Shown piece by piece: positions 25,597 through 35,622 of a DNA stretch of 64,000 nucleotides. The stretch is from Deinococcales bacterium (GTDB lineage Bacteria > Deinococcota > Deinococci > Deinococcales > JAAFIG01). Position 1 is the first letter of the stretch, and every line of letters begins with the position of its first letter. The notes under the pieces were generated by a model that made no database searches, was not told where the DNA came from, and saw nothing but the letters and a program-made list of their open reading frames with translations. The translations under genes were made by a program, and so were the position numbers. The DNA lies in assembly GCA_013298595.1 (NCBI GenBank), contig JAAFIG010000003.1, positions 62,001 to 126,000 of the forward strand, read 5' to 3'.

Positions 25597-26031
25597 TTAC
25601 GGTACAGCGTAAATGCCATCATCACGAATTTGCAACTTAAAAGCTGGCAATGGTGCTCCTGCTGGTCCTTGTTTAACTGCCCCTGTTTCAAGATCAAAAA
25701 CACTGCCGTGACAAGCACATCCAACTTGGTTATTGACGGGTGCACCAACAATACAACCAACATGGGTGCAAACTGTTGAACGGGCAAGCAGATGAATATC
25801 TCCTACCGATACACCTTGTGATTGCGGTTTTGCCAATCGGACAAGGATAGCCGGATTACCACTTAAATCTAAATTCTTGCTACTGCCAACATTTGGAAAG
25901 TCACCAAGCACTGCCACTTTTACACCAGCAGCGGCAAGGCTTGCCCCTGGATTTTCACGAACTGGTAAGCAACCTGTCATACCTACCGCGCCAAGGGCGA
26001 CTAAAACTTCGCGTCTCGAGATTTTTGACAT
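25597..26031 (-). CDS. Small stand-alone Rieske [2Fe-2S] protein with Tat-like signal
   Basis: A 144-residue protein with twin-arginine signal SRREVLVALG, ending in a lipobox-like GMTGC. Rieske box 1 is CTHVGC and box 2 is CACHGS, with the usual proline-containing loop. It is therefore an exported, possibly lipid-anchored, high-potential iron-sulfur protein. It is divergent from the oxidase/bc gene block and may donate or accept electrons there. The ATG at 26031 is chosen since the longer frame adds 35 residues before the Tat motif. Confidence 0.88.
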   Translation of the reverse strand: MSKISRREVLVALGAVGMTGCLPVRENPGASLAAAGVKVAVLGDFPNVGSSKNLDLSGNPAILVRLAKPQSQGVSVGDIHLLARSTVCTHVGCIVGAPVNNQVGCACHGSVFDLETGAVKQGPAGAPLPAFKLQIRDDGIYAVP

Positions 26032-26157
26032 CTTTAGATTGTGACATGGTTCAATGTGTTTTCGATGTACGGGTTTGTTCCAAAATCGGTTTGGAAATGT
26101 TTCATTGCGATTAAAATTTAGTGGCTGAATACACATTCGTGAGTAAATCGCTATGAT

Positions 26158-26279: not shown

Positions 26280-27725
26280 ATGAGTATGGTCGAATCTTGG
26301 CGTGACCGTTTGTTTCCGGATACCACGGACTCAGCGGCGAAGCTATGGTTGACTTCTGCTGTGGTTTGGGGCGTAGTGGGTATGACTTTCGGTGTGTTTA
26401 TGGCAATTCTGTTTGTCTTTCCAGAATTTACCAAAGGCGTGCCTTGGTTGTCGTTTTCTCGTATTCGTCCTTCACATGTCAATACTGTGGTCATGTCGTG
26501 GGTTTCGATGGCAAGTATTGGTTCAATGTTTTATATGTTGCCACGCTTAGTCAAAACTCCGCTGCATAGTGAACGTTTAGCCAATATCGTCGGTTGGTCG
26601 TGGAATGCGTTTGCATTATGTATTCCTCTAACGCTTTTAAATGGTTTATCTGAAGGGCGCGAGTGGGCAGAGTTGATCGCACCAATGGACTGGTGGATGC
26701 TTGTTAACCTTGGCTTAGTGGGTTACTTAACCTTTGCCACAGTAGCAAACCGCAAAGAGCCACAACTCTACGTTTCGGTCTGGTACTGGATGGGTTCGAT
26801 GGTTGGTATGACCTTAGTCTGGATTGTTGGGAACCGAACCTTCATTCCGTTAGATGGCTTAAACGATGCTATTGCTAATTGGTTCTATGCTCACGATGTG
26901 CTCGGGCTTTGGATCACCACAATGGGTATTGGCATTATTTATTACTTATTACCAAAATTAACGGCTGGCAAAAATGGCGAACCAGGCAATCCTGTGTTTT
27001 CCCACAAAATGTCTTTAATTGGTTTCTGGGGCAATTTTGCTTTTTACACTGGTATTGGTGCTCACCATATTATTCAGTCCCCTGTTCCAGAATGGCTGAA
27101 AGCCTTTGCGATTGCCTCGAGCGTTCTCATGAGTATCCCTGTGTACTCGGCAAGTGCGAATTTCTTTTTGTCCACTCAAGGTCGTTGGGAAAACCTCGCT
27201 TGGAATTTACCACTGCGTTTTGTGACTTTTGGTTGGATTATGTACGCTTTATCCAGTTTCCAAGGTAGTTTACAAGCGGTACGCTCAATCAACTGGTATC
27301 AACACTTTACTGGCATCGTTTCGGCACACGCTCACTTAGCCATGCTTGGTGGTTTTAGTGTGGTGCTGTTCGCCAGTATTTATTATTGTATTCCGCGTTT
27401 ATACAATGTCGAATGGTACTCTAAGAAATTGGTTGTGGTGCACTTTTGGACTTTTACTGTTTCCTTTGTCATGTTTTTCTTGGTCTGGACAACCATGGGA
27501 TTTGTGCAAGCCACCAGTTGGGTGATGGGCATTAACGTTCAACAAACTGTGCCTTTTTTACAACCATTTACTTTCACTCGTATGATTGCTGCGGTTTCAA
27601 TGATTTTCTCGGTGTACATTTTTGCCTATAACTTATTGCAAACTGTTCGCTCTGCTAAACGTGCCCAAGCCACTTCTCGAGTAATATTTCCTTCACCAGT
27701 TGCCCCAGCAGCGGCGGACGATTAG
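26280..27725 (+). CDS. ccoN: cbb3-type cytochrome c oxidase, catalytic subunit I
   Basis: A 481-residue heme-copper oxidase core with about twelve membrane helices. Visible ligands are RPSHVNT (heme), YAHDVLGLW and the GAHHIIQSP pair (CuB region), and SAHAHLAMLGG (heme b and b3). The TGIGAHHIIQSPVPEW stretch is typical of CcoN rather than of aa3 oxidases. It reduces oxygen to water in the membrane with high affinity. It is the first gene of a plus-strand operon of at least twelve genes. The Shine-Dalgarno is GGTGGAG. Only two CTCGAG sites occur in 1.4 kb, far below the window's norm. Confidence 0.93.
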   Translation: MSMVESWRDRLFPDTTDSAAKLWLTSAVVWGVVGMTFGVFMAILFVFPEFTKGVPWLSFSRIRPSHVNTVVMSWVSMASIGSMFYMLPRLVKTPLHSERLANIVGWSWNAFALCIPLTLLNGLSEGREWAELIAPMDWWMLVNLGLVGYLTFATVANRKEPQLYVSVWYWMGSMVGMTLVWIVGNRTFIPLDGLNDAIANWFYAHDVLGLWITTMGIGIIYYLLPKLTAGKNGEPGNPVFSHKMSLIGFWGNFAFYTGIGAHHIIQSPVPEWLKAFAIASSVLMSIPVYSASANFFLSTQGRWENLAWNLPLRFVTFGWIMYALSSFQGSLQAVRSINWYQHFTGIVSAHAHLAMLGGFSVVLFASIYYCIPRLYNVEWYSKKLVVVHFWTFTVSFVMFFLVWTTMGFVQATSWVMGINVQQTVPFLQPFTFTRMIAAVSMIFSVYIFAYNLLQTVRSAKRAQATSRVIFPSPVAPAAADD

Positions 27726-27733
27726 GGGTTTGT

Positions 27734-28657
27734 ATGTTAAATGCCAAAAATGCAATTATTGGATTGATGTTTATGCTACTGGTCACAGGTGTTACCAGTT
27801 TAGTGGTGGTTGTACCAGCAGCCACCTTTAACCCAGAACCAACCCCTGGTTTACGCAATTATACCCAAGCTGAGTTGCGTGGACGAGAAGTCTTTAAGCG
27901 CGAGAATTGCTATGTGTGCCATAGCCAATTTGTGCGTTTCCAAGACGAAGGTGTTGGACCAACTTCTCAGGCTGGCGATTTTGCTTACGATAATTCCAAC
28001 CTTTTAGGCACGTTACGCAATGGACCTGATTTATCTTACGAAGGTGGTTTATACCCCGACGAATGGCACATTGGTCACTTAAAAGCCCCTCGTTCGTACT
28101 TACCAGGCAGTTATATGCCAAGTTATAGTTACCTCTCCAACACCGATATCAAAGACCTTGTCGCCTTTATTCAAAGCCTTGGGACACGTAACACCCGAGC
28201 TTGGGATACCAAAGATGTCAATGTGCCAGAAAAGTACCGCAACCTCAAATCGCCTTTGGGGCAAAGTGTGGCAAATATTGGTGCTGGACGCGGTATTTAC
28301 GCCCAAAATTGTCAGGCTTGCCACGGCTTTGAAGGTCGCGCCGATGTGCCATTGGCAAAAATGTTTTACCCAAAACCGGCTGCTAATTTTCACTTACCTC
28401 GTTACAAGGATTTCACCGATGGTCACTGGTTCAACAAAGTGGCTCGAGGTGTGCCTGGTACCCGTATGCCCCGTTGGGATCTCATTCTCAATTCTGAGCA
28501 AATCTGGTATGTCGTTACTTACTTAAAATCTTTAGCCGCTGACCAAGATTTGGTACCTAAAGCTGGACGCGAGAAGTACTACGATAAGAGCGTTCTGCAA
28601 CCTGGCGAGATCGAACGTGATTACAAAGATGCTCCTAAAGCAGGTAAAGGACACTAA
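27734..28657 (+). CDS. CcoO-like subunit fused to a second cytochrome c domain
   Basis: A 307-residue protein with an N-terminal membrane anchor, a CcoO-like domain with heme motif CYVCH (Cys59, Cys62, His63) and the CcoO hallmarks LRNGPDLSYEGG, WHIGHL and MPSY, followed by a second cytochrome c domain with CQACH (about residues 193-197) and axial Met in GTRMPRW. The second domain resembles the heme domains of CcoP. Canonical cbb3 oxidases have separate CcoO (one heme) and CcoP (two hemes); here one diheme protein seems to replace both. The start lies 9 nt after ccoN. The next gene overlaps at TAATG. Confidence 0.88.
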   Translation: MLNAKNAIIGLMFMLLVTGVTSLVVVVPAATFNPEPTPGLRNYTQAELRGREVFKRENCYVCHSQFVRFQDEGVGPTSQAGDFAYDNSNLLGTLRNGPDLSYEGGLYPDEWHIGHLKAPRSYLPGSYMPSYSYLSNTDIKDLVAFIQSLGTRNTRAWDTKDVNVPEKYRNLKSPLGQSVANIGAGRGIYAQNCQACHGFEGRADVPLAKMFYPKPAANFHLPRYKDFTDGHWFNKVARGVPGTRMPRWDLILNSEQIWYVVTYLKSLAADQDLVPKAGREKYYDKSVLQPGEIERDYKDAPKAGKGH

Positions 28658-28940: not shown

Positions 28941-29105
28941 ATGGCAGACCAAAAAGATAGTTCAACCCAAGATCATGACGATCACACCCACGAGATTGCA
29001 GGTATTCGTGTTGGTGAACGTAATGTTCCTGCATCGGTGATTGCTGTGTTTATTTTCGTTTTGTTTTTTGCATTAATTTCGTGGATTGCACCGCAGGGGT
29101 TTTAA
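28941..29105 (+). CDS. 54-residue single-helix membrane protein
   Basis: ATG at 28941 preceded by a GAGGTG Shine-Dalgarno formed by CTCGAGGTG, stop TAA at 29103-29105 overlapping the next start by one base. The product has a His/Asp-rich N-terminus (QDHDDHTHE), one hydrophobic helix (about 30-48) and ends IAPQGF. The tight spacing on both sides makes it a real gene. It is probably a small subunit of the oxidase; the His-rich segment might bind copper, which is a guess. Confidence 0.75.
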   Translation: MADQKDSSTQDHDDHTHEIAGIRVGERNVPASVIAVFIFVLFFALISWIAPQGF

Positions 29106-30115
29106 TGAAAAAAATCATGCAGTTTCTCCTCATTTCGAGTTTGGCAGCTTGTAGTTTGCCAAGTAAACTCAGTGTGGATACGCCAGATACTTCAGCCGTG
29201 GAAAAAGGTTCGATTTCGTTGCGTGAAGGTGCTAAGAATCTCGAGATCACACCAAAAGAAGGCGAGTATGCTTGGAAGTACCATAAGTACCCCGAGGATT
29301 ACAAAATAGATTTATCAAACCGCGACCCTGACAATAAAACCTATATGTCTGGTCGTGAAATTACCTACCGCGCCAATGCCGAAGGGCAACCAAAAATGGA
29401 TACGGCACTGGCAGAAGCTGGTTCGTATGCAGGTCCGTGGATTGAAGGCGAAGAAGCCTTGTTATTGCCCGTTGGCTACCCTAATGTCGTATTTGGCGAT
29501 GCTTTAATTAAAGTGTTAGGGTCTGAAATCAAACCCGAAATGCTTCCAACGCTCGAAGAAAGTCCATTCCAAGGGTTTTTAAAACTACAAGAATTAGGTC
29601 GGGATGCAGCAGGTAAGTACCGTACTGTGCCTGTGGAAATCAGCGGCGTAACCAACCCTTCAACTGGTAATGCCGAAGTGGCTGTTTATGATGTCCAACT
29701 CGATAAAGAAGCACTGTGGAGTCTGACCTATGCGTTATACCGCAAAATTCAACCTGATTTTTCGGTGCGTATCCCAACAAAAGATGATCCGAAGAAATTA
29801 GTAGATGGCGCTTTGGTTTTTGGTAATTGCAACATGTGCCACGGTTCTGATGGATGGGGCTTAGGCAAAAGTGGGCATAAATTACAACCACACCCAGCCA
29901 ATTTTCACGAACCACGACGTTTATTTAATCGCTCTGATACAAAACTCCGCGAAGTTTTGCGCCACGGTGTTTATGGCAGTGCAATGCCACCTTGGGGTGA
30001 TAAATTATCCGACGCAGAAATTAATCATGTGGTTGCGTACCTCAGAGCTTTTTCTTACTCCTCGAGTCCACCCGTTTTTAATATTAAACCACGTTTTAAG
30101 GGAGGTCAGCAATGA
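29105..30115 (+). CDS. Monoheme cytochrome c lipoprotein
   Basis: A 336-residue protein starting with a lipoprotein signal (lipobox SLAAC). The first 230 residues are an unrecognised soluble domain; the C-terminal domain is a class I cytochrome c with CNMCH and axial Met in GSAMPPWG. It would be tethered on the periplasmic side and carry electrons between the Rieske/cytochrome b complex and the oxidase. The start is the ATG that overlaps the stop of the 54-residue gene; the Rieske gene follows with a 4-nt overlap. Confidence 0.88.
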   Translation: MKKIMQFLLISSLAACSLPSKLSVDTPDTSAVEKGSISLREGAKNLEITPKEGEYAWKYHKYPEDYKIDLSNRDPDNKTYMSGREITYRANAEGQPKMDTALAEAGSYAGPWIEGEEALLLPVGYPNVVFGDALIKVLGSEIKPEMLPTLEESPFQGFLKLQELGRDAAGKYRTVPVEISGVTNPSTGNAEVAVYDVQLDKEALWSLTYALYRKIQPDFSVRIPTKDDPKKLVDGALVFGNCNMCHGSDGWGLGKSGHKLQPHPANFHEPRRLFNRSDTKLREVLRHGVYGSAMPPWGDKLSDAEINHVVAYLRAFSYSSSPPVFNIKPRFKGGQQ

Positions 30116-30777
30116 TTGACCGCAGAAGTGTTCTCAAAGGCTTTGTCAAAAATGCCACCATCTTGCCAATTCTCGCTGTCGTAGGTGGCGTTGGCACAGC
30201 CTTGTTATCGTATCTCAAGCCAACGTGGAAATTTGGTGATTTACCAAGTACCGAAAAACCCTTAAATAAGGATAAAGTTGTCGGTACGCTCGAGGAATTT
30301 GCCAAGGATTACGATTTCAAAGAATTTATTTTCACCCAAGTAACCGTCGAATACTCAGCTCGAGGTCGGGCAGCCACAGATATTCTTGGGTATGCTGTTC
30401 GTATTCCAAACGATAGCTTAAAAGCGGCTGATGTTGGCGTTGGACCGAGTGGTTTACGCCGAGGGTACGGTGAAACCGAGTACAAGGGGCAAAAGTACAG
30501 CATTGTTGTGGTCTCGAGAATTTGTGCACATCTGGGGTGTATTTTTGAGTATCACACACCAGAGCAAGTCTGTTCTGGATTTAATTATTGTGGTGGTAAA
30601 ACACCAATGTTCTCTTGCCCGTGTCATTTGTCAGTTTACGATCCTGCCCAACAACAAGACGTTCCTGGTGCAGGTGTTTTAGCAGGCAAAGTCGTTTCTG
30701 GTCCAGCACCTCGTACCCCGTTCCCTTTTGATTTTGAAATCAAGGGCAATCAGATTGTCGTCAAGAGTTACGGCTAA
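30112..30777 (+). CDS. Rieske iron-sulfur protein of a bc-type complex
   Basis: A 221-residue protein with a twin-arginine motif DRRSVLKG and an uncleaved N-terminal membrane helix, then the Rieske domain: box 1 CAHLGC (ligands Cys138, His140) and box 2 CPCHLS (ligands Cys169, His172), with Cys143 and Cys171 as the disulfide pair. The loop between the boxes carries an insertion with two more cysteines (154 and 160), unusual for bc-complex Rieske proteins. It is the high-potential acceptor of quinol electrons. Shine-Dalgarno GGAGGT and a 4-nt overlap with the cytochrome c gene show coupling. Confidence 0.92.
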   Translation: MIDRRSVLKGFVKNATILPILAVVGGVGTALLSYLKPTWKFGDLPSTEKPLNKDKVVGTLEEFAKDYDFKEFIFTQVTVEYSARGRAATDILGYAVRIPNDSLKAADVGVGPSGLRRGYGETEYKGQKYSIVVVSRICAHLGCIFEYHTPEQVCSGFNYCGGKTPMFSCPCHLSVYDPAQQQDVPGAGVLAGKVVSGPAPRTPFPFDFEIKGNQIVVKSYG

Positions 30778-30793
30778 AAGGAGGAATTGAATT

Positions 30794-32110
30794 ATGGCAG
30801 CTCCCGCAGTTCCAACCAAGAAAGCCACTCCACATGTTGGGCAAAAAATTGCTCAGTGGTGGACAAAAAGTGCTCGTAACTTAGACCTGTTTGATGAAAA
30901 TCAAACTGATCGTGTTTTAACCGACCCTTGGTACATGTTGGGTGGTATGGCATTGTTGTTTTGGTATATCACCATTGCCACTGGTACTGTTTTAATGTTT
31001 TTCTATGTGCCTGATACTTACCAAGCTTGGCGTAGTGTGCGCGGTATTTTTGAAGGCGAACAAGGCTTCTTAGTCGCACTCATCCGCAATATGCACAAGT
31101 ATGGTGCTGATGCTCTGATTATTGCTTTAACCATGCGAATTTACCGCATGTATTTCCGTGGGGAATTCAAAAACTATAATCAGCTTTCCTACATGGTGAC
31201 AATTATTGGTTTGATTCTTGCCATGTTTAGTGGTTTGACTGGTTACTTACTGATTTGGAATCAACGCGCACTTTGGGCAACTAAGGTCTTTGCTACTTTC
31301 CCAACTTTTGTAGATGATTTCCATAGTATTCCAACGATTAAAGTTTTTATGGCACCCGTTGCTTACATCCTTGAACATACTTTATCAAATCTTAAAATTG
31401 GGGCTTTAACAGCTAATTTTATGTTGGCTGGTCAGAGTATTGGTGACGCAACACTAACGCGTTTTTACAGTGCCCATTTTATGCTTTCAATTTTAGCGAT
31501 TGTGGCTATCGAAGCTTACTTTGCTCGTAAAGGACGTGGTGGCAAAATTGGTGAAGCAGCAGCTGGTGGTGGTGCAGGGCGTTTCAAGCGAATTAATATG
31601 CCTTGGTTTGCGGTGCTGTTTTGCTTTATTGTGTTAATTGTCATTTCAATTTGGATGCCAGTAGATACGGGTAGTCCCGCCAATTACAACGTCACACCAA
31701 ACCCAATTTTATCTGATTGGTACTTTTTGGGCTTATACCAAATGATGAAATGGTGGAAACCTGCTGTAGCCACACTGCAAACCATTTTGTTACCACTGGC
31801 AGCATTTGCTGTGGTTTTCCTCGATTACAGCCCAGAACGCAGCCCTTGGAAACGCCCATTCTGGACGATGGTAGGAATTTATGGATTGGTTTCTTGGTTG
31901 GCTTTTAGCATTCTGATTATTCTTAATATTGCTGATATCAAACGCGACCCACCATATGTATATCTGGTCTCGATGATTATGCTGGCTGTTGGCGCAATTT
32001 GGCATTGGGTTTACAAAGCAGGCGAACGTCGCACACGCAAGAAACTCGAGGCAGAAAAAGCGGCAAAAGCAGCCCTTGCTGCGGCTGCAACCCCACAAGC
32101 TGCCGATTAA
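30794..32110 (+). CDS. Full-length cytochrome b lacking both heme bH histidines
   Basis: A 438-residue membrane protein aligned by eye with mitochondrial and b6-type cytochrome b: four N-terminal helices plus the C-terminal domain with a PEWY-like Qo motif (SDWY, residues 307-310). Helix B keeps the p-side heme ligand His101, but the position 14 residues later, normally His, is Arg115; helix D keeps His228, but the position 14 later is Tyr242. Both ligands of the n-side heme bH are thus replaced while heme bL ligands remain. The C-terminus is an Ala/Lys-rich tail. Only one CTCGAG occurs in the gene. Confidence 0.9.
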   Translation: MAAPAVPTKKATPHVGQKIAQWWTKSARNLDLFDENQTDRVLTDPWYMLGGMALLFWYITIATGTVLMFFYVPDTYQAWRSVRGIFEGEQGFLVALIRNMHKYGADALIIALTMRIYRMYFRGEFKNYNQLSYMVTIIGLILAMFSGLTGYLLIWNQRALWATKVFATFPTFVDDFHSIPTIKVFMAPVAYILEHTLSNLKIGALTANFMLAGQSIGDATLTRFYSAHFMLSILAIVAIEAYFARKGRGGKIGEAAAGGGAGRFKRINMPWFAVLFCFIVLIVISIWMPVDTGSPANYNVTPNPILSDWYFLGLYQMMKWWKPAVATLQTILLPLAAFAVVFLDYSPERSPWKRPFWTMVGIYGLVSWLAFSILIILNIADIKRDPPYVYLVSMIMLAVGAIWHWVYKAGERRTRKKLEAEKAAKAALAAAATPQAAD

Positions 32111-32140: not shown

Positions 32141-32446
32141 ATGAAAGGAAGCACTTGGCTCGTTACGTTGGTCACATTTGTGGCAGGCATTGTTGTGTTC
32201 TCGAGTGGGTATGCCGAAGTAGTGCGGTATCTCGAGCGTCCAACATGGGTTGGGTTGGCTTTGATTGCTTTCTGGTTTGTTTTGCTAATTTTTCTAGTGG
32301 TGAGTCTTGGTTTTATTATGTACGCTGTGGATCGTAAAGCAGGCAATGTGAAAGTGAAAATTTCTGTATTTGAAAAATTACTTGGGTACAAAGCAGATGC
32401 TGTTCTGCCTGAAGCTCGAGTGAAAAGTGATAAGGAGCAAGCATGA
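32141..32446 (+). CDS. Small two-helix membrane subunit of the respiratory complex
   Basis: A 101-residue protein with two hydrophobic helices (about 7-24 and 38-64) and a basic, Val/Lys-rich cytoplasmic end. I recognise no family. An AAAGGAAA-type ribosome site precedes it and the next gene overlaps by 4 nt, placing it firmly within the operon. Confidence 0.7.
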   Translation: MKGSTWLVTLVTFVAGIVVFSSGYAEVVRYLERPTWVGLALIAFWFVLLIFLVVSLGFIMYAVDRKAGNVKVKISVFEKLLGYKADAVLPEARVKSDKEQA

Positions 32447-32811
32447 AGACCATTTTTGCCATTTTGCTGGTGTTAGCTGCGTTGGGATTCGCACCTCTCA
32501 CCATTGGTGCGTTTGCACATAGCAACCCAGATTTTGGCACCGTAGAAACTGCTTTAACCAGCAGCAACCCATATATTGTTCGTGCTGACGCTGCCCCTGC
32601 CTTGCCAGGCTTTGTGGTCAGTATTGTCAAAGGTATTCGTGATCTCGAGGGAGCCATTTCTAATGCTGCATTGCCGCAACTTAAAAGCAATCCATTTGAA
32701 CGTGGTTTTGCTTATATGGGTATCACTGTTTTACTGACAGCTATTGCTTCGGCTTTACTGGCAGATACTCGTAGTCAAACGCTGGTTAAACCCGGCAGAA
32801 AGGCGGCGTAA
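32443..32811 (+). CDS. Small membrane protein of the respiratory complex
   Basis: A 122-residue protein with a hydrophobic N-terminal segment (1-25), a polar loop of about 65 residues and a second membrane helix (about 90-110). The loop would face the periplasm. No heme or iron-sulfur motif is present. It ends one base before the ATG of the cytochrome b-ferredoxin gene. Confidence 0.7.
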   Translation: MKTIFAILLVLAALGFAPLTIGAFAHSNPDFGTVETALTSSNPYIVRADAAPALPGFVVSIVKGIRDLEGAISNAALPQLKSNPFERGFAYMGITVLLTAIASALLADTRSQTLVKPGRKAA

Positions 32812-33999
32812 ATGGCAGGCTATAGTGCAGATCAAGCGCCAACCAGCCGCGATAAGGGATTTGACGCTGGCTTAGATGGTATCCACAAAGCTGTGGTATC
32901 TGTAGATAAAGCCATTAATAAAGTCATTCCCGAAGAATTCAACCCATTTTATTATCTTGGTGGAATCACCAATTTGTTATGGGTTTTACTGGTGCCATCA
33001 GGTATTTTTCTTTGGTTTTATTACAAACCAACCACAGCTGAGGCTTTCTCGAGCGTGGATTACTTAACTGCTCAGGTGTTCTTTGGTGGTGTGATTCGTG
33101 GTATTCACCGTTACGCAGGTAATGGCATGATTTTGATGGCGATACTGCATATGTTACGGAATTTCTTTACTGACCGTTACCGAGGCTTCCGTGATATTCC
33201 TTGGGTTTCGGGTGTTATCTTGTTATTCCTAACAGGCTTTATCGGTTTAACTGGTTACTTACTGGTCTGGGATCAACGCGCCTTAGTAATTACCGACGCT
33301 TTGGTACAAATCCTCAAAAGCCTTGACTTGGTGATTGCTGGACTGGGCACTTGGTTTGCCCAAGCCTTGATTGGTGGCGACGAACCCAATAACCTAACCT
33401 TAGCCCGCATGTTATTTTTACACGTTGGACCAGCAGTTATGGTTTTCTTTTTCTTGTGGGTGCATTACTTGCGTTTGCACCGACCAAAAATCTGGCCTCC
33501 AATGTTTGTAACCTTACTAACTATCGGTGCAGTGTTATTAGCCGCTGGTCTTGCTCCACTCGAGAAAACCTTACCAGCCACGCAGCCCTTTGTTGAAGGT
33601 CAAACCGCATTGGTTTACGATATTTTCTACTTGTTACCTGTATTGGCACTCTCGAGTCTGAGTGCTCCTGCTGTGATGGCAATTTTGCTGGCATTGTTTG
33701 CTGTGATGTTTATTCTGCCTTGGCTACCAGCTAAAAAGCACCGTTACATCAATGTGGCAACGGTTACCCCAGAAAACTGCACTGGTTGCCAACTTTGCGC
33801 CATAGATTGCCCTTTCGATGCCATTATTATGGTTCAAGGCTCAAACCCGAATCCGCGTTATAGCGAATTAGCTGTGGTCAACGATGACAAATGTGCTGAG
33901 TGTGGAATTTGTGTTGGCGCTTGCCCTTTCCATGCAATTAACCTTCCTTTGATGGATGAATACGCGATACGCGATAAGGTGGTGGCATTACTTAAATGA
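32812..33999 (+). CDS. Cytochrome b fused to a 2x[4Fe-4S] ferredoxin domain
   Basis: A 395-residue protein. The membrane part has four helices with all heme ligands: His99 and His113 in helix B, His204 and His218 in helix D, so two hemes b are expected. Three further hydrophobic segments follow, but where the PEWY motif should stand the sequence reads YDIFYLLP, so a normal Qo site is unlikely. The C-terminal domain (about 312-380) is a bacterial ferredoxin with CxxCxxCxxxC twice (Cys323/326/329/333 and Cys361/364/367/371). The clusters would face the cytoplasm. It overlaps the following MvhD-like gene by 4 nt. Confidence 0.93.
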   Translation: MAGYSADQAPTSRDKGFDAGLDGIHKAVVSVDKAINKVIPEEFNPFYYLGGITNLLWVLLVPSGIFLWFYYKPTTAEAFSSVDYLTAQVFFGGVIRGIHRYAGNGMILMAILHMLRNFFTDRYRGFRDIPWVSGVILLFLTGFIGLTGYLLVWDQRALVITDALVQILKSLDLVIAGLGTWFAQALIGGDEPNNLTLARMLFLHVGPAVMVFFFLWVHYLRLHRPKIWPPMFVTLLTIGAVLLAAGLAPLEKTLPATQPFVEGQTALVYDIFYLLPVLALSSLSAPAVMAILLALFAVMFILPWLPAKKHRYINVATVTPENCTGCQLCAIDCPFDAIIMVQGSNPNPRYSELAVVNDDKCAECGICVGACPFHAINLPLMDEYAIRDKVVALLK

Positions 34000-34484
34000 C
34001 AAGCACATCTGATACAACTCAACCCAATGTCCTAGCCCAAAATGGCAAACCAAAAATCCTTGGTTTCTTATGCGAATGGAGCTTAGGACGCACCGATCAT
34101 ATCCACGAAGATGGCACAGTCAAAGGTATGGAGCACATCAAAACCATTAAAATTCCATGCAGTGGTTTTGTTAAAACCGAATGGGTGACAGTTGCTTTTG
34201 AAAATGGCGCACAAGGCGTTTTTATTCTTGGATGTCCACTAGGCGATTGCCATTTTAATGAAGGCAACTTCATTATTAACGGACGACTCGAGCAACACGT
34301 TGGACGTTTAGTCAACCGTAAAATTGTGGACGATTCAGGTCGGGTTGCCGAACTGTACTTAGGCGCAACGGGTAACAACGATTTCTTTGGTCAACTCGAA
34401 GATTTTACTAAGTACATTGAAGCCTTGCCGCCATTGGTGGTGGCTGCTAAAAAACCACGCGCTGCTGCCGCGAAAAAGGAGTAA
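33996..34484 (+). CDS. MvhD/FlpD-like iron-sulfur protein
   Basis: A 162-residue cytoplasmic protein matching the hydrogenase iron-sulfur subunit family (MvhD, FlpD), which hands electrons between a dehydrogenase and heterodisulfide reductase in methanogens. Visible motifs are FLCEWS (Cys26; the usual second Cys of CxxC is Ser29), IPCSGFV (Cys55) and LGCPLGDCHFNEGN (Cys80, Cys85). Four cysteines remain, enough for one [2Fe-2S] cluster. An Ala/Lys-rich tail ends the protein. Its 4-nt overlap with the cytochrome b-ferredoxin gene suggests direct contact with the ferredoxin domain. No hydrogenase or HdrA is in the window. Confidence 0.85.
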   Translation: MTSTSDTTQPNVLAQNGKPKILGFLCEWSLGRTDHIHEDGTVKGMEHIKTIKIPCSGFVKTEWVTVAFENGAQGVFILGCPLGDCHFNEGNFIINGRLEQHVGRLVNRKIVDDSGRVAELYLGATGNNDFFGQLEDFTKYIEALPPLVVAAKKPRAAAAKKE

Positions 34485-34487
34485 GCC

Positions 34488-34706
34488 ATGAGCGATATTT
34501 CTTTAGAAGCCCGAACCCAAGAAGGCAAGATTCTCGAGTCTAATGGTGAATCTGGTTTAACGGTACGCCCGGAACTCGAGCAGGTCGCCACAGTTGAAAA
34601 AGATGCTCGAGGTATTGGTTATGTGATGAATTGGATTAGTCTGATTGTCTTGTTTGTTGTTTCAATGGCAATTATTGCTTGGTTCGGTCCGTTCAGTGAA
34701 GTGTGA
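34488..34706 (+). CDS. Small single-helix membrane protein, last gene of the operon
   Basis: A 72-residue protein with an acidic soluble N-terminus (about 40 residues) and one C-terminal membrane helix (about 47-66). AAGGAG Shine-Dalgarno and 3-nt spacing to the previous stop tie it to the operon. The family is unknown; it could anchor the MvhD-like protein to the membrane complex. Confidence 0.65.
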   Translation: MSDISLEARTQEGKILESNGESGLTVRPELEQVATVEKDARGIGYVMNWISLIVLFVVSMAIIAWFGPFSEV

Positions 34707-34766: not shown

Positions 34767-34808
34767 TAGAATCATGGTCTATCAGGGGCGACTCCAACCG
34801 AGCCGCCC
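34767..34808 (+). promoter_or_regulatory. Possible promoter -10 and leader hairpin of the kinase gene
   Basis: TAGAAT at 34767-34772 could serve as -10 (no clear -35). Just downstream, GGGGCGACTC (34783-34792) pairs with GAGCCGCCCC (34798-34807) to make a GC-rich hairpin like the other REP-type elements. The Shine-Dalgarno GGAGAA and ATG at 34834 follow. The hairpin may also end read-through from the respiratory operon. Confidence 0.4.
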
Positions 34809-34833
34809 CTCGAGTCTTCGCATCGGAGAAGCC

Positions 34834-35622
34834 ATGTGTGCCCAACTGAGTATCCAAGCTGTAGAACCCGCGAACGGAATTAGTCATATCCAACTTATTG
34901 CCAGCACAGCCCAAATTCTTTTAGAACGCGCCCATTGGAACGGTATACCTGTTTGGGTTAAGCGTGTTAAACCAACATTGCTTAGCAACATAGAAATTCT
35001 TGAACGTTTCGACCGTGAAGGCGATGTTCTCGAGCGTTTAGATCACCCCAATATTCCGCGTTTAGTGCATCGTGACCGTGGCATTCTGATGCGTGAATAC
35101 ATCGAAGGTAATTCCTTGCATCATTACCTCGAGCACACCAATATTGATTATGCCAGCACCTTACATATTGCTAAAGGTGTCTTATCAGCATTGGTGCATT
35201 CGCATGTCCGCGAAATTCTGCATTTAGATGTTAAACCTTCTAATGTTTTACTGAGCGCAAACCGCCGTGTGCATCTGATTGATTTTGGTTCAGCTAAGGA
35301 TTTAACCGTTGAAAGTATCACCCAAGCTGATGTCCGATTAGGCACACCACATTACATGGCACCAGAACAATACCAAGGTATCCGAGACGATCAACGCAGC
35401 GATGTCTACAGTGTTGGGGCTTTACTCTACGAATGCTTAATGGGAAAACCATTGCATAAAGACCCATTCGCTTGGTTAGCCGGACGCGGACAATTACCCA
35501 CCGACCTACCCAACCATCAAGGTTTAGCCAAAATTATTCTTAAAGCCGTGCAACGCAACCCAGAAGACCGTTATGCAGAAGCCTTAGATATGCTCGAGGC
35601 ACTTGAAGGTTTATACTTTTAA
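34834..35622 (+). CDS. Serine/threonine protein kinase (soluble)
   Basis: A 262-residue single-domain Hanks-type kinase. Seen motifs are the ATP-lysine segment VWVKRV, the catalytic loop HLDVKPSNVLL (HRD replaced by HLD, Asp kept), the DFGSAK metal-binding loop, LGTPHYMAPEQY activation segment and DVYSVGALLYE. There is no membrane helix or sensor domain, unlike PknB-type kinases. The ATG at 34834 is chosen because it has a Shine-Dalgarno and follows the putative start of transcription. Its stop overlaps the stop of the convergent next gene by 4 nt. Confidence 0.92.
   Translation: MCAQLSIQAVEPANGISHIQLIASTAQILLERAHWNGIPVWVKRVKPTLLSNIEILERFDREGDVLERLDHPNIPRLVHRDRGILMREYIEGNSLHHYLEHTNIDYASTLHIAKGVLSALVHSHVREILHLDVKPSNVLLSANRRVHLIDFGSAKDLTVESITQADVRLGTPHYMAPEQYQGIRDDQRSDVYSVGALLYECLMGKPLHKDPFAWLAGRGQLPTDLPNHQGLAKIILKAVQRNPEDRYAEALDMLEALEGLYF

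Follow-up and report, generated by a model that had tools for sequence, protein, structure and literature searches.

Electron crossing between the haems of the two halves of complex III has long been argued over and has been tested with engineered mutants (PMC4330944). In the sections of that report on which we draw, a cross-inactivated bc1 complex is described as turning over through electron transfer from one haem bL to the other, over 14 Å edge to edge. Another relevant case is that of the anammox bacteria, for which the parts of the source consulted argue that a high-potential Rieske protein allows a very low-potential b haem and hence the reduction of NAD(P) (PMC12954380); the same parts state that a Ser/Tyr pair raises the potential of the Rieske protein.

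In the window, by which we mean the whole stretch of 64,000 nucleotides analysed, an operon on the forward strand encodes, in this order, a c-type cytochrome, a Rieske protein, a first cytochrome b (cytb1), two small membrane proteins, a second cytochrome b fused to a ferredoxin domain (cytb2), a FlpD/MvhD-like protein (FlpD hereafter) and a last small membrane protein. Genes for a cbb3-type oxidase lie just upstream on the same strand. As read from its sequence, the operon works like a Rieske/cytochrome b complex, yet none of its chains has both b haems together with a Qo motif. The complementary equipment of cytb1 and cytb2 makes it very probable that they form one complex, each contributing the half that the other lacks. 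The gene set as one assembly looks secure; the heterodimer and the direction of electron flow are what we infer from it. The features of the locus are as follows.

26280..27725, + strand: CcoN-like catalytic subunit of the adjoining terminal oxidase, of cbb3 type (PF00115, 1.9e-70)
27734..28657, + strand: oxidase subunit, FixO/CcoP-like c-type cytochrome (PF02433, 2.1e-35; Cytochrom_C, 1e-19)
29081..30115, + strand: c-type cytochrome with one CxxCH in its C-terminal part and a lipoprotein-like start (PF13442, Cytochrome_CBB3, 3.7e-11)
30112..30777, + strand: Rieske 2Fe-2S protein with CAHLGC and CPCHLSVY, Ser174/Tyr176 (TIGR01416, 2e-7)
30794..32110, + strand: cytb1, cytochrome b with Qo motif SDWY and ligands for haem bL only (PF00033, 1.3e-22; PF00032, 1.2e-4)
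31712..31723, + strand: Qo motif SDWY of cytb1, residues 307-310 (from the sequence)
32141..32446, + strand: small membrane protein 1, two hydrophobic segments (hydropathy; place in the operon conserved)
32443..32811, + strand: small membrane protein 2, two hydrophobic segments (hydropathy; found in relatives)
32812..33999, + strand: cytb2, cytochrome b with bL and bH ligands and a fused two-cluster ferredoxin (sequence, Pfam, alignment)
33106..33465, + strand: codons of cytb2 for H99 and H113 (helix B) and H204 and H218 (helix D) (sequence; 44/44 conserved)
33619..33630, + strand: degenerate Qo position DIFY of cytb2, residues 270-273 (sequence; D in 43/44)
33778..33924, + strand: two 4Fe-4S motifs of cytb2, residues 323-333 and 361-371 (sequence; eight Cys conserved)
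33996..34484, + strand: FlpD/MvhD-like protein with invariant Cys 26, 55, 80 and 85 (PF02662, 3.8e-22; MvhD 5odc_D, 1.2e-17)
34488..34706, + strand: 72-residue protein with one hydrophobic segment, end of the operon (hydropathy; similar ORFs in loci L013, L014 and L015)

The start listed for the c-type cytochrome gene is a GTG, and translation may in fact begin some codons downstream of it. Profile searches gave no family match for the 72-residue protein and detected no FAD NAD(P) oxidoreductase domain among the operon proteins, nor did Pfam reveal among them the NrfD-like membrane subunits of alternative complex III. The operon itself contains no gene for an acceptor or donor enzyme and no HdrA flavoprotein partner. 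Around it, a second, unrelated Rieske-domain protein is encoded on the - strand just before the oxidase genes (25597-26136; PF00355, 4.4e-9), and a serine/threonine protein kinase gene follows directly (34774-35622; PF00069, 6.7e-33), as do ORFs of similar size and sequence in L013 and L015.

The 395-residue cytb2 is a cytochrome b of b6 type with a C-terminal domain carrying two 4Fe-4S motifs, and the open reading frame assigned to it in the initial annotation is exact in coordinates, frame and length. It matches the Cytochrome_B family at residues 36-224 (1.7e-29), Fer4 families at approximately 315-383 and, as nearest solved chains, cytochrome b6 (3.3e-34). The histidines H99, H113, H204 and H218 occupy the residues at which they were first placed and are kept in all 44 aligned relatives (window included); the cluster cysteines (323/326/329/333 and 361/364/367/371) likewise lie where the two motifs had been located, seven of them being kept in 44/44 sequences and the eighth in 43/44, with one Ser. 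Because it is kept throughout this alignment of 44, the ligand pattern is not a product of chance. At the PEWY position the protein indeed reads YDIFYLLP, with D at residue 270. However, to describe cytb2 as without a Qo motif was too strong, as the acidic residue is kept in 43/44 sequences and is followed by W in 21/44 (VDWFYL, for example); judged by this conservation, the motif is a worn P(E/D)WY, degenerate rather than absent. The cysteine of haem ci/cN in helix A (position 48) was found in 0/44 cytb2 and 0/39 cytb1 sequences, a comparison for which we took C35 of cytochrome b6 to be the haem ci ligand. Single-chain AlphaFold models of cytb2 and cytb1, with 4 and 3 close sequences in their alignments, had mean pLDDT values of 36.3 and 38.4 respectively and, both being below 40, were discarded as evidence.

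The bH-less paralogue mentioned in the initial annotation is real and corresponds to cytb1 (30794-32110), which in the window has H101 and H228 as bL ligands and R115 and Y242 in place of the bH histidines. All 39 cytb1 sequences, counting that of the window, keep the two bL histidines, whereas the bH histidines are kept in 0/39. The bH position of helix B is Arg in every one of the 39, and that of helix D is F in 18, Y in 14, L in 3, and M, W or V in one each, with one gap; counting from each bL histidine, positions +10 to +18 hold no histidine in this set, in which L106 is cut at helix D. The Qo motif is (S/A)DWY in all 38 readable sequences. The complementarity between the paralogues, already proposed from the window, is thus conserved in three phyla, with bL and no bH ligands in cytb1 and four histidines in cytb2. 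A control alignment comprised 42 rows, four of which were fragments unreadable at the ligand positions; 12 rows with a ferredoxin domain and 23 other cytochromes b all read HHHH, and three cytb1 rows read HRHY. In every locus long enough to tell, the loss of bH accompanies a neighbouring cytb2. As cytb1 lacks bH, cytb2 reads HHHH and all 23 of the ordinary controls do so too, these alignments indicate that cytochromes b which have lost bH occur together with a ferredoxin-fused neighbour that has it.

A quick maximum-likelihood tree of 71 rows with SH-aLRT support, marked by long branches and a poorly resolved deep order within cytb2, recovered cytb1 as one clade (98) and the ordinary cytochromes b as another (95); cytb2 falls on the same side of a branch (98) as the single-chain cytochrome b-ferredoxin fusions. 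Since cytb1 forms one clade, the loss of bH looks like a single old event. The phylogeny of fused proteins, suggested at the outset as a check, groups cytb2 with other cytochrome b-ferredoxin fusions and indicates that it is part of a wider family of such proteins; in the loci read, these other fusions stand beside heme-copper oxidase-like genes, with no Rieske protein or cytb1. The single-chain cytochrome b-2[4Fe-4S] proteins are approximately 675-705 residues long and lie beside heme-copper oxidase-like genes (L050:7738-9801; L053:7758-9872; L054:7216-9318; L057:7531-9558; L058:9099-11129), in a gene order that, as we take it, resembles the norSY-senC-orf1 clusters of ammonia oxidisers.

Among the 111 genomes of the window's own phylum, four, which belong to a single Deinococcales family and repeat the layout, contain the full-length fusion, and FlpD is found in these same four; a cytb1-like match of some kind was obtained in 68/111, weak outside the family. 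A survey of 293 genomes, a large number of them belonging to other phyla, added two loci, from G185 and G219, in which the genes are arranged alike; these two genomes share only the domain with the window's genome, and neither appears in the phylum search of the other. Within the phylum of G185, cytb2 is present in 38/43 genomes (E<=1e-40), which takes it beyond the curiosity of one MAG; of the five remaining genomes, G296 has a Rieske protein, and in G300-G303, all of one genus, none could be detected. Of the genomes in the phylum of G219, 3/4 have cytb2. When 385 genomes were surveyed with cytb1, 15 matched, including six members (G219, G185, G327, G328, G336 and G337). Of the nine non-member matches, six loci were read and G126, G417 and G474 were left out; the weak cytb1-like matches at L136, L138 and L140-L143 were rejected as members, as they have a KPEWY motif and keep the helix B pair, KPEWY being on a separate subunit-IV-like gene in L138. 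Narrow peptide patterns run against named genome collections matched three Deinococcales MAGs and, in the ferredoxin part only, one Bacteroidales sequence. A plasmid search yielded 29 records, a single one of which aligns over 80% or more of the query (28.7% identity).

Gene order was established from 44 fetched loci (window not counted) annotated with purpose-built profiles, and the counts refer to 43 of them, L106 being left out because its contig ends before cytb2. FlpD follows cytb2 in 43/43 loci, and cytb1 precedes it in 40/43, the other three being cut by contig ends. A Rieske gene precedes cytb2 in 34/43, with seven loci cut and two truly without it (L104 and L105); a c-type cytochrome lies upstream in 35/43, several others being cut, and a CcoN-like gene falls inside the fetched stretch in 13/43. 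The two loci without a Rieske gene contain a divergent operon (L104:900-5125 and L105:1-4177, from G337 and G336) with cytb1 (ADWY), cytb2 and FlpD; no Rieske protein was detected between its cytochrome c and cytb1 or elsewhere in the genome at the sensitivity used, an absence that falls short of proof since the Rieske-domain protein encoded at 25597-26136 in the window escaped the same profile.

The palindrome CTCGAG, presumably a HIP1-like iterated palindrome, occurs 429 times in the 64 kb of the window against approximately 13 expected from base composition, with a median spacing of 107 bases and 372 of the 429 copies within long ORFs. The family relatives (L013, L014, L015) have 5.2-6.2 copies per kb, against 0.3 per kb for L049 and L052 and 1.2 for L016.

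Six cytochrome b helices precede the ferredoxin domain of cytb2 according to the cytochrome b fold, and Lys plus Arg number 3, 3 and 3 in the BC, DE and post-F loops versus 1, 2 and 1 in the AB, CD and EF loops. Together, the helix number and the positive-inside count support a location of the ferredoxin domain on the bH side of the membrane, which would be the cytoplasm; the helix number itself rests on homology, since a hydropathy scan missed helix B and called some extra segments. Of the transmembrane wire to cytoplasmic iron-sulfur clusters that had been suggested for cytb2, it is thus the cytoplasmic placement of the clusters that gains support. The clusters of cytb2 and the FlpD of the window match consecutive stretches of HdrA2 (571-640 and 644-772 of 777), with similar limits in L049 and L052. 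FlpD, which the initial annotation did not include, scores 79 bits with PF02662 against a curated cut-off of 22.3, making it a member of the FlpD/MvhD family, and its four cysteines are kept in 44/44 sequences (with one X at one place). It is likely to be the next carrier after the two clusters. In hydrogenase-Hdr complexes FlpD is the electron input, passing electrons that come from hydrogenase or formate dehydrogenase on to HdrA, and the clusters of typical 2[4Fe-4S] ferredoxins are very low in potential.

From these elements, we propose the following working. Quinol would be oxidised at the Qo site of cytb1; the first electron would pass to the Rieske protein, the cytochrome c and the cbb3-type oxidase, and the second to haem bL of cytb1 and from there to haem bL of cytb2. 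As cytb1 is without bH and offers no other known exit, the electron would have to make this crossing, and we consider that bL-bL transfer is probably obligate. In cytb2, it would continue from bL to bH and to the two fused 4Fe-4S clusters on the cytoplasmic side, then through the cluster of FlpD to a candidate soluble acceptor. The electron wire is the same whether electrons run outward or inward.

A net flow outward to a cytoplasmic acceptor is put forward tentatively, and what favours it is the Rieske protein together with the anammox argument. The two Cys and two His ligands and the disulfide cysteines of the Rieske protein are kept in 36/36 sequences, as is the Ser of the high-potential pair, the Tyr being kept in 35/36; among 14 other Rieske strings collected by pattern search from control loci, the Ser occurs in a single one, which has Phe at the Tyr position. 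Only by analogy would the high-potential argument made for anammox carry over to this protein. Against outward bifurcation, L104 and L105 have the pair of cytochromes b without the detectable Rieske protein that bifurcation would need, and low-potential clusters and an input role of FlpD would suit the reverse direction. POR_N, from ferredoxin-linked enzymes, says nothing on direction since it is found in 61/64 genomes, with and without the complex, and the NuoF family of complex I, present in 19/20 genomes, is equally uninformative. The whole chain, from the asymmetric complex through the bL-bL step, the clusters and FlpD to an outward delivery, could in our judgement equally well hold or fail, with direction as its weakest link. 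That it constitutes an aerobic, membrane-bound and quinone-based bifurcating enzyme, with oxygen as the high-potential sink and an obligatory bL-bL step that would drive the second electron onto low-potential clusters and FlpD in the cytoplasm, producing reduced ferredoxin or NAD(P)H instead of running a Q-cycle, we hold to be rather doubtful.

Whatever else it does, the pair probably does the work of complex III. In G000, there are no cytochrome b matches other than cytb1 and cytb2, and no NrfD-like protein (PF03916) was found in G000, G005, G006 or G007, all four genomes of the window's family; as far as sequence matches reveal, the pair is the only quinol:cytochrome c oxidoreductase recognised in G000. 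Other members may have alternative routes, since NrfD-like proteins occur in 12/20 genomes tested.

The same chain could instead feed electrons inward, the complex running a Q-cycle via bL-bL to a quinone site by the bH of cytb2 and the clusters with FlpD serving as an entry port, so that electrons from reduced ferredoxin or a docked dehydrogenase would pass through FlpD, the 4Fe-4S clusters and bH to quinone. This arrangement, the chief alternative to outward flow, is a serious possibility even if we think it doubtful: it would agree with the FlpD/MvhD homology and the carrier role toward HdrA, would be energetically downhill and easier than outward flow, would have cytoplasmic ferredoxin-linked enzymes at hand and would befit a complex that replaces ordinary complex III in the window's family. 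On the other hand, it does not need the high-potential Rieske pair, and its donor enzyme is absent from the operon; a weak further objection is that the Qi-site Lys and Asp positions of bc1, which we placed on cytb2 by eye, hold T/V/W and L/M/F, menaquinone sites differing anyway. A more modest role, in which FlpD and the iron-sulfur domain serve an asymmetric complex III, itself running an ordinary Q-cycle via bL-bL, for sensing or as a structural appendage, would fit the cell's need for complex III function and an operon that has neither acceptor nor donor gene. It is unlikely, as the eight cysteines of cytb2, the four of FlpD and the 43/43 adjacency of FlpD point to a complete redox relay that is maintained.

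That cytb1 and cytb2 belong to two separate complexes, such as homodimers, and merely share an operon could be argued from the cytb2-like fusions found elsewhere, beside heme-copper oxidase-like genes and without Rieske protein or cytb1. However, a cytb1 homodimer would leave the bL electron no exit, and the loss of bH is confined to one clade (98), always with a neighbouring cytb2 where this can be told, which makes such a separation quite improbable. The genome to which the window belongs is a draft assembly in 68 contigs, but degenerate genes or an assembly artefact can hardly account for a ligand pattern that is the same in three phyla, including four-contig assemblies (G219, G293).

For the asymmetric complex of cytb1 and cytb2, we found no natural counterpart in the open-licence PMC literature in which a Rieske protein is joined by a cytochrome b lacking bH and by a partner fused to ferredoxin, and its novelty is provisional, referring to that literature only; a match to 'heterodimeric cytochrome b' concerned cytochrome bd (PMC6606698). 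If the proposal is true, the complex would be a natural enzyme with bL-bL transfer as the only exit from its Qo site, meaning that evolution relies on this crossing and offering a direct system in which to test it. It would also be a second design, beside that of anammox bacteria, for quinol bifurcation to the cytoplasm, here next to an oxygen reductase.

The engineered cross-inactivated bc1, in which one half of the fused Rhodobacter cytochromes b bears the mutation G158W and its partner half bears H212N (PMC4330944), resembles the operon in having a Qo site without bH in one half, bH with a disabled Qo site in the other, and a bL-bL crossing; as described in the sections cited, it differs in being a mutated ubiquinol enzyme with a Qi exit and no ferredoxin domain or FlpD. 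The anammox complexes of Kuenenia (Kuste4569-4573 and Kustd1480-1485) also join a Rieske/cytochrome b core to a cytoplasmic redox module, and they likewise have a high-potential Rieske protein and a proposed quinol bifurcation for cytoplasmic reduction, but their module, in the parts of the source consulted, is an FAD NAD(P) oxidoreductase and they have a b6-like cytochrome b with subunit IV, multihaem c and haem cN (PMC12954380). The operon has instead two unlike cytochromes b, a fused ferredoxin and FlpD; its c subunit carries one or two CxxCH, and there is no haem-c cysteine. With HdrA2 and MvhD-FlpD of methanogen heterodisulfide reductase it shares the order of a C-terminal ferredoxin followed by FlpD, although in the operon this module is attached to a membrane cytochrome b and the HdrA flavin part is absent. 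The single-chain cytochrome b-2[4Fe-4S] fusions, which are the nearest relatives of cytb2 in the tree (98), have the same domain order but longer chains, and neither Rieske protein nor cytb1 stands beside them in the loci read. Finally, ordinary b6f/bc complexes, including the menaquinol complexes of other Deinococcota, have in common with the operon the Rieske protein, the c-type cytochrome, the Qo site and the bL/bH fold, yet they carry Qo, bL and bH on one cytochrome b (four His in 23/23 readable sequences) that has no ferredoxin domain.
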